64,000 bases of DNA from Cylindrospermum sp. FACHB-282 (GTDB lineage Bacteria; Cyanobacteriota; Cyanobacteriia; Cyanobacteriales; Nostocaceae): contig NZ_JACJRJ010000001.1 of NCBI RefSeq assembly GCF_014697195.1, positions 124,001 to 188,000 on the forward strand, written 5' to 3'. The notes under the pieces were generated by a model. It did not search any database, had not been told where the DNA came from, and saw nothing but the letters and a program-made list of their open reading frames with translations. Every line of letters starts with the position of its first letter. Positions within the stretch are counted from its first letter, which is position 1. The position numbers were made by a program, and so were the translations under genes. Below, one piece after another: positions 22,879 to 24,641 of this stretch.

Positions 22879-23595
22879 TTACTCAGCAGTAGCCAGTTCT
22901 GTACTGCCGCGTGTGCGTCGTCGTGTTAGGGTGTTGAACAGCATCACACCAATGGCTTTGATTAAATTGCCTTCTAATTCCTGGAACATCTTCATGTTCA
23001 CACCAAAGGCGGCATTTGCTTCTTCTACGATGCGATCGCCTGTAGCATCATCAATAGGCATTTCATCCAAGTTTTGCCGATATTGGGCTTTGAATGCCTT
23101 CTCATCGGTAATATCTGCAAACTCATAAAAGGCTGTACCTTCCCCATCGCCAAGTTTCATCGCTGTTTGGGCAATACCTTTGAGAATTTGTCCCCCAGAT
23201 AAATCACCTAGATAACGAGTATAGGAATGGGCAATTAGTAATTCTGGGGCTGTATCGGATATTTCCCGGATGCGTTTTACATAAGCTTCCCCTGCGGCGG
23301 ATAATTTGATTTGCTCCCGCCAGTTGTGTCCAAAGTAGTAATGTAAGTCTTGCTCTAAGGTATGCTTGCGGTTGAGTTCGGGAAAGTAAATTTTGCCAAC
23401 AATCGGATGATTGCAGTGCTTTTCCATTTCTTCCTCCATCGCTGAGTAGATGAAATAGAAGTTAGCAACCAGTTTCCGGTAGGAGTTTTTCTCTACTACT
23501 CCTTTTAAAAAGCACTTGACAAAACCCACATTTTCTGCCATTGTGTGGGCTTTTTTGGTGCCTACACGTAATTTGGCGGCTAAATTGCTGCTCAT
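22879..23595 (-). CDS. ho1: Heme oxygenase (biliverdin-producing)
   Basis: Ferredoxin-dependent heme oxygenase opens heme to biliverdin IX-alpha, CO and Fe2+, the first step of phycobilin synthesis. The 238-residue all-helical protein has the proximal heme ligand His17 (KKAHTMAE), the conserved FYFIYSAMEEEMEKH, and the distal helix SYTRYLGDLSGGQILKGIA with the G-x-x-x-G kink. The length matches cyanobacterial HO1. It starts at ATG 23595. A perfect GTA-N8-TAC motif lies 133 bp upstream, suggesting nitrogen control by NtcA. The upstream gene ends 164 bp away, so it has its own promoter. Confidence 0.96.
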   Translation of the reverse strand: MSSNLAAKLRVGTKKAHTMAENVGFVKCFLKGVVEKNSYRKLVANFYFIYSAMEEEMEKHCNHPIVGKIYFPELNRKHTLEQDLHYYFGHNWREQIKLSAAGEAYVKRIREISDTAPELLIAHSYTRYLGDLSGGQILKGIAQTAMKLGDGEGTAFYEFADITDEKAFKAQYRQNLDEMPIDDATGDRIVEEANAAFGVNMKMFQELEGNLIKAIGVMLFNTLTRRRTRGSTELATAE

Positions 23596-23727
23596 ACTAA
23601 ATTTCTCAACTTTAAAATGTTAACTTCCAGAGCTTTGATTTACGAATGACTAAAAAAGCCATTAAAACGTTACATTAAAACTATTTGATGAGAATTAATA
23701 TTAAAATTTCTTAAGTTTGCCTTCTTT

Positions 23728-23741
23728 GTACGGCTTTATAC
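23728..23741 (-). promoter_or_regulatory. Candidate NtcA-binding site upstream of heme oxygenase
   Basis: The sequence GTATAAAGCCGTAC, read on the minus strand, fits the NtcA consensus GTAN8TAC exactly. Twenty-four bases further downstream is TAATAT, which fits the TAN3T -10 box of NtcA-activated promoters (usual spacing about 22). The start codon follows at about 133 bp. It is the only perfect site I found in a credible promoter position in this window. Confidence 0.5.
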
Positions 23742-23759: not shown

Positions 23760-24641
23760 CTAACCGTCATAACCCATACGCCCTAGCATAGCGGATCTAA
23801 AAAGAGAATATGAGGTTGCACGTCTGGGAATCTTTACATTAACAGTCTGAGGCTCAAGCAAATTTAATTTTTCCGAGTCTGGTTCTTTAACTTGACTTAT
23901 TAATTTTCTGTGTAAAGAGACAAAATGTATTGCGGTCGTTTGTTCAAAGCGGTGAAGGGTGCCTGGGTTGGAAATGATGAACTCCAGAGGGTCATATATC
24001 TTACAACGGAGTTTAGATGCTGCTACTGCCCAACAAGTTTGTTCAATCCAAGCGTGGTGCTTGACAAATGCATCTTCATCTCTATATTTTTTGAGAAAAT
24101 AATTGATGCGATCAAGGTCAAATTTTGAGGTATCAAAACAAATCAAACCTGCATTAATTTTGGCAGGAAGTTTTTCTGGCCCAATCGGCCACAAATGCCA
24201 CGGACGCAAGGCGTAAGCCTCACGGCAATCTTCCATAAAAACAGCATCTGCTGCAAAATGTGAAATATTAAATAACCCACTAAAAGGTTTTAAAAAGAGA
24301 ATGTCCGTATCGCAGTATGCCAATATGTCAGTCTCTAATAAAGTAATATCAAAAAGTTTTAGACCAAAAACGTGCTTTTGGCGATATTCCAAACATGCTT
24401 GATAATTGGCTAATTGAGGAATAATCAAAGAATCGGCTTCTTCTCTGGATATGACAGAGCAAGGCAAACTGGACTGAAGAGTTAAAATGTCTTCGGGGCG
24501 AAGAGAACCATCCTCATGGATAATAATGTGAATTTTTTCCCTACTCATTCTCACTAATGATCCTAGGCATTGAATGGCGAGATTGACTTGCCGACGGCCG
24601 AGAAGAGTTCGCACGTTAACTGTCGAGTTTGGTATGTCCAA
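23760..24641 (-). CDS. Putative GT8-like glycosyltransferase
   Basis: A 293-residue protein with a GT-A-like glycosyltransferase fold: N-terminal NVRTLLGRRQVNLAIQCLGSLVRMS, then the metal-binding motif in ILAYCDTDILFLKPF, KINAGLICFDTSKFD, and IEQTCWAVAASKLRCKIYDPLEF. The pattern (nucleotide-sugar strand, D-x-D, INAG, EQ) resembles family 8, although the enzyme is more divergent than the one at 21601-22461. The acceptor is unknown. There is no signal peptide or membrane anchor. Confidence 0.75.
   Translation of the reverse strand: MDIPNSTVNVRTLLGRRQVNLAIQCLGSLVRMSREKIHIIIHEDGSLRPEDILTLQSSLPCSVISREEADSLIIPQLANYQACLEYRQKHVFGLKLFDITLLETDILAYCDTDILFLKPFSGLFNISHFAADAVFMEDCREAYALRPWHLWPIGPEKLPAKINAGLICFDTSKFDLDRINYFLKKYRDEDAFVKHHAWIEQTCWAVAASKLRCKIYDPLEFIISNPGTLHRFEQTTAIHFVSLHRKLISQVKEPDSEKLNLLEPQTVNVKIPRRATSYSLFRSAMLGRMGYDG

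Follow-up and report, generated by a model that had tools for sequence, protein, structure and literature searches.

The heme oxygenase gene ho1 of Cylindrospermum sp. FACHB-282 is likely preceded by an NtcA-type operator, as predicted from sequence, and on balance we think it probable, without being confident of it, that this operator is the NtcA site of a two-input promoter through which ho1 would answer to both nitrogen and iron. The features concerned, in coordinates of the window (the whole stretch of 64,000 nucleotides that was analysed), are:

23728..23741, minus strand: predicted NtcA/CRP-type operator, GTATAAAGCCGTAC within TGTATAAAGCCGTACA, from the sequence and a GT-N10-AC at the same position in 40 of 82 ho1 loci
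22879..23595, minus strand: ho1, heme oxygenase, 238 aa (ORF; PF01126, E 2.9e-89)
23760..24641, minus strand: upstream ORF on the same strand as ho1, 293 aa (ORF list; no Pfam family at E 0.001)
23683..23701, minus strand: predicted FurA box, ATATTAATTCTCATCAAAT, one base off the published prediction for ho1 (all1897) of Anabaena PCC 7120
23698..23703, minus strand: TAATAT, the −10 box of the first-pass annotation, overlapping the predicted FurA box
23672..23677, minus strand: TAATGT, the −10 candidate that we prefer (every one of the 82 loci has TAN3T here, with variation in the middle three bases)
23665, minus strand: predicted transcription start, placed 7 nt after the −10 candidate

The probable operator and its surroundings in the window

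The observation from which this analysis started, made in the first-pass annotation, is confirmed: the letters, coordinates and minus-strand orientation of GTATAAAGCCGTAC were correct, its core is a perfect GTAN8TAC, and it lies 133 bases from the ho1 ATG (23595) and 24 nt from TAATAT (23703 to 23698). The PF01126 match bears out the identity of ho1 as a heme oxygenase, and the ORF list holds no frame of at least 60 codons between operator and ATG, in agreement with the claim that no gene intervenes. On the other side, the 293-codon ORF ends 18 nt ahead of the operator; this frame, without a Pfam match, stands between ho1 and glmM, where no ORF of about that size is present in Nostoc calcicola (L013). 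Rfam matches over the whole window were limited to two tRNAs, the promoter region giving none, and a motif scan of the window found no second GTAN8TAC within 3 kb upstream of the operator. Profile searches placed nifH above cut-off in this genome.

One such motif, taken by itself, means little. The window has 14 copies of GTAN8TAC where 9.8 would be expected, and 13 of 100 shuffles reached 14; GTAN8TAC followed by TAN3T at 20–25 nt was found five times, against 2.2 expected, a number reached in 19 of 200 simulations. Because the motif count is within chance, a lone match proves nothing; single-motif significance was rejected as evidence, and the case for the operator rests on conservation.

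Conservation upstream of ho1

The ho1 upstream set comprised 82 loci, that is, 86 less L004–L006 (second heme oxygenase) and less L012 (genome the same as that of L003), and the alignment had 83 rows, with the duplicate L012 still in. Since the relatives sampled were the best 80 of 388, the set leans to near relatives, and since the rows are related, the counts given here are not independent. For presence or absence, L018, L030, L032 and L040, which had a mismatch in the anchor, were set to 'none', in agreement with the motif matches listed.

In 40 of the 82 loci, a GT-N10-AC dyad precedes the TAATAT position by 24 or 25 nt. Seven of these have the perfect GTAN8TAC and the other 33 an imperfect form, mostly GTGN8TAC; at the operator place the dyad is absent from 42 loci, which include two larger clades, and one further variant, GTGN8TAC at 28 nt, was seen in L060. 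The conservation in relatives to which the first-pass annotation had looked is seen in about half of the sample, in 40 loci at 24–25 nt that include the three genomes of the window's genus, and not in the remaining 42. When all dinucleotide pairs with spacers of 4–15 were scanned at distances of 14–49 nt upstream of TAATAT (81 rows, L055 being unanchored; weighted over 46 clusters, with the expectation taken from dinucleotide frequencies), GT..AC with spacer 10 at 25 nt ranked first, at 13.0 observed against 0.18 expected. A second set of 57 stretches, reduced to 33 by removing 24 repeats of earlier rows (L115 is unlike ho1, the other 32 being presumed ho1), had GT-N10-AC in nine rows, every one at 25 nt; GT-N8-AC at 25 nt in five rows is the second GT of GTGT and hence the same element, and GT-N12-AC was found in up to three of the 33 rows at any one distance.

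The Nostoc clade, in which 25 rows were used after L060 with its site at 28 nt had been dropped from 26, gives a view of individual columns. There, each of the four GT/AC columns shows a single change on the tree and the ten spacer columns show 2.0 per column on average, compared with 6.7 changes per column in the 12 upstream flanking columns and 4.7 in the 10 downstream ones, so that a block of ~18 bp is conserved amid fast-changing surroundings; the A-rich spacer is conserved as well. Among the 103 rows with the exact FurA-box core, 44 carry the dyad; a T precedes GT in 37 of these and an A follows AC in 37 as well, position 12 is T in 36, and position 3 is G in 32 and A in 12. As side observations, L068 has ~75–90 extra bases just upstream of the operator relative to other Nostoc loci, the operator by the promoter being intact, and a perfect GTAN8TAC recurs about 271–281 nt before ho1 in 15 of 26 Nostoc-clade loci. 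In L013 (region of about 2545–2736), GTAATAAATATTAC, with a perfect GTAN8TAC, is located between ho1 and the divergent glmM, a position that makes the extra copies not assignable to ho1, and they were set aside. A second heme oxygenase of the window's genome (L005; G000:C1:70617-71327), 59% identical and ~53 kb before the window, has no GTAN8TAC in its 1500-base flanks, the only copy being inside the gene.

Comparison with glnA sites

As a yardstick for NtcA sites in this family, we took the regions upstream of glnA in 30 of the 39 genomes that have glnA above cut-off, starts being set at the first Met of the frame. GTAN8TAC was found in 23 and was absent from seven, and TAN3T follows at 23 nt in 22 of the 23 sites and at 22 nt in the other. 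Sites such as TGTAACAAAAACTACA of glnA are close to TGTGTAAAAAACTACA, which many ho1 loci have. A matrix built from 19 distinct glnA sites and scored over the 230-nt ho1 upstream regions had its best match at 24–25 nt in 41 of the 82 loci (37 of the 40 with the dyad, four of the 42 without), where 100 column-permuted matrices had theirs at the operator place in 0.8 loci on average and in 17 at most; given the conserved A-rich spacer, and as the permuted maximum of 17 indicates, this result is partly due to A-richness. The window's own copy, the middle of which is not A-rich, scores weakly for that reason (5.5, rank 37 in the window).

The genome encodes NtcA, with a profile score of 383.6 bits; it holds seven matches to the NtcA model, this one alone above cut-off. 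One genome of the window's genus (G001) keeps the ho1 dyad and has no NtcA match above the family cut-off, through an assembly gap or a real loss. GTGN8CAC, the CRP pattern, was tried and rejected, as it is absent from the matches at the operator place in the first set. The NtcA ChIP logo, in the accessible text of PMC3898017, is GTN10AC with merely some prevalence of A at position 3. Since NtcA prefers A there, the G in 32 of 44 dyad rows counts against NtcA. Altogether, the reading of the operator as an NtcA site gains from the 40 of 82 loci with a dyad at the same place and from the 41 of 82 matched by the glnA matrix, and loses from a perfect consensus in no more than seven of 82.

A predicted FurA box and a downstream −10 candidate

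TAATAT fits TAN3T at 24 nt from the operator, as had been proposed. Class II NtcA promoters have the site ~22–23 nt before TAN3T, and this spacing is not found at ho1, where it is 24 nt in the window and 24–25 nt in relatives. The hexamer is TAATAT in 77 of the 82 loci and does not fit TAN3T in the other five, of which L065, L069 and L082 keep the dyad. By comparison, a second TAN3T that starts 26 nt downstream of TAATAT is present in all 82 loci, as TAATGT (36), TAAGGT (32), TAATCT (10), TACTGT (3) or TAGTCT (1), and in 32 of the 33 second-set rows, the exception being L115. Its free middle is as expected for a −10 box; it is our preferred candidate.

The predicted FurA box overlaps TAATAT and lies between the operator and this second TAN3T. 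A box was predicted for all1897 (ho1) of Anabaena PCC 7120 in the accessible text of PMC4005646, and the window has 18 of its 19 bases, strongly conserved in the 82 loci. To the published FurA consensus the match is 15 of 19, the same as at four other places in the window. The exact 17-mer of the box core occurs in 58 of the 388 genomes of the order, all in the window's family except G153, and the reversed control pattern was found once; three FUR-family genes were detected in the genome by profile search.

With the downstream TAN3T taken as −10 and a start near 23665, the operator would lie near −69.5 (−70.5 in most dyad relatives) and the FurA box would span about −36 to −18, a geometry that by comparison with CRP class I activator positions would be class I-like. 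In class II NtcA promoters the site is centred near −41.5. Given the spacing of 24–25 rather than 23, the overlap with the predicted FurA box and the better −10 candidate downstream, TAATAT as the −10 box, and with it the promoter model of the first-pass annotation, is doubtful; its operator is probably right and the FurA box was not mentioned, so that its interpretation is partly supported overall.

Distribution of the dyad among relatives

Presence and absence of the dyad require seven changes on the ho1 tree compared with 27.5 for shuffled labels, although such clustering comes easily in a sample of near relatives. All three genomes of the window's genus carry the dyad, the perfect core being confined to that of the window. 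The 42 rows without it fall into one Dolichospermum/Aphanizomenon-type clade (13), one clade with Anabaena, Trichormus, Nostoc parmelioides and others (18), and 11 scattered rows, L060 included. Anabaena PCC 7120 presumably belongs in or near the clade of 18. On a tree of uncertain root, loss of the dyad would be the simplest reading of this distribution. More tentatively, and as a scenario that we hold to be possible but not probable, ho1 would have been under joint control of NtcA (class I-like) and FurA in an ancestor shared by much of the Nostocaceae, and two groups would since have lost the nitrogen input, the bloom-forming Dolichospermum/Aphanizomenon and the clade to which PCC 7120 probably belongs; control of heme breakdown by nitrogen would then have escaped notice because the model organism lacks the dyad. 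If the clade of the model strain is without the operator, studies of that strain may overlook regulation widespread among its relatives.

The favoured reading and its rivals

The reaction of heme oxygenase supplies phycobilisomes with the precursor of their bilins and releases the iron of heme. The demand for iron is high in cells that fix nitrogen, and phycobilisomes are taken apart when nitrogen runs short; a dual-input ho1 promoter would therefore directly link the NtcA and FurA networks. In the reading that we favour, NtcA loaded with 2-oxoglutarate would, when nitrogen is short, occupy the operator at about −70 and activate ho1 from that upstream position in the manner of a class I CRP activator; FurA, bound over the core promoter at the predicted box, would set the response to iron. 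This reading builds on the observed elements with their conservation and spacing and on the presence of ntcA and three fur-family genes. Because HO1 opens heme to biliverdin and iron, such a promoter could match heme breakdown, as iron release and bilin supply, to both nutrients. The binding of NtcA, the −10, the start site and activation as the direction are what we infer from this arrangement. Whether FurA would raise or lower ho1 expression is left unsettled by the literature: high FurA at low iron accompanies more heme oxygenase transcript, as cited in the accessible text of PMC7922959, and the ho genes of Synechocystis fall at low iron according to that of PMC4092027.

An improbable alternative has TAATAT as the −10 box of a class II NtcA promoter, with a start near 23691 and the operator centred near −43.5; there FurA would compete directly with RNA polymerase. 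The agreement of TAATAT with TAN3T at 24 nt and its presence in 77 of 82 loci speak for this arrangement; it sits poorly with the spacing of 23 in 22 of 23 glnA sites of the same family (24–25 at ho1), with the five loci in which the hexamer breaks TAN3T, three of them keeping the dyad, and with the downstream TAN3T of all 82, and the FurA box could itself account for the conservation of TAATAT.

Somewhat less probable again is a real dyad that serves a CRP-family protein of this genome other than NtcA. The seven NtcA-model matches, one of them above cut-off, would offer candidates, and the frequent G at position 3 would suit such a protein; the right half TAC(A) and the A-rich middle resemble same-family glnA sites, though, and GTGN8CAC is missing at the operator place. 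We give still less weight to a chance match in the window's genome, with the regional conservation due to, for example, an A-rich promoter-upstream element. The motif count of the window, the 42 loci without the dyad, the conserved A-tract inside the block and the weak score of the window's copy are compatible with chance, but the dyad ends and their T and A flanks are conserved beyond the A-tract, and the dyad scan singled out spacer 10.

Relation to known NtcA and FurA promoters

A search limited to the main text of open-licence papers gave no link between NtcA and ho1; there, the NtcA ChIP study (PMC3898017) mentions neither ho1 nor all1897, and a study of genes that FUR and NtcA control in common in Anabaena PCC 7120 (PMC12282138) does not mention ho1.

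The two-input promoter that we favour can be set beside three known systems. A 2007 paper in J Mol Biol reportedly treated PCC 7120 genes common to the FUR and NtcA regulons. From ho1 of PCC 7120, the gene described here would differ by its dyad, which is missing from the 18-row clade with Anabaena, Trichormus and Nostoc parmelioides where we take that strain to belong. The two are otherwise the same gene, with FurA 19-mers one base apart (all1897; accessible text of PMC4005646). Class II NtcA promoters (glnA, nirA, urtA and ntcB, in the accessible text of PMC3898017) are alike in the GTAN8TAC core, the TGT...ACA context and a downstream TAN3T; ho1 differs in the distance to the first TAN3T-like box (24–25, compared with 23 in glnA), in the predicted FurA box that covers this box, and in position 3, mostly G in relatives with the dyad. 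In FUR- and NtcA-controlled genes of PCC 7120, as far as the accessible text of PMC12282138 extends, FUR and NtcA boxes share a promoter region, as is predicted at ho1. Overall, ho1 is a plausible new NtcA target of a known kind.
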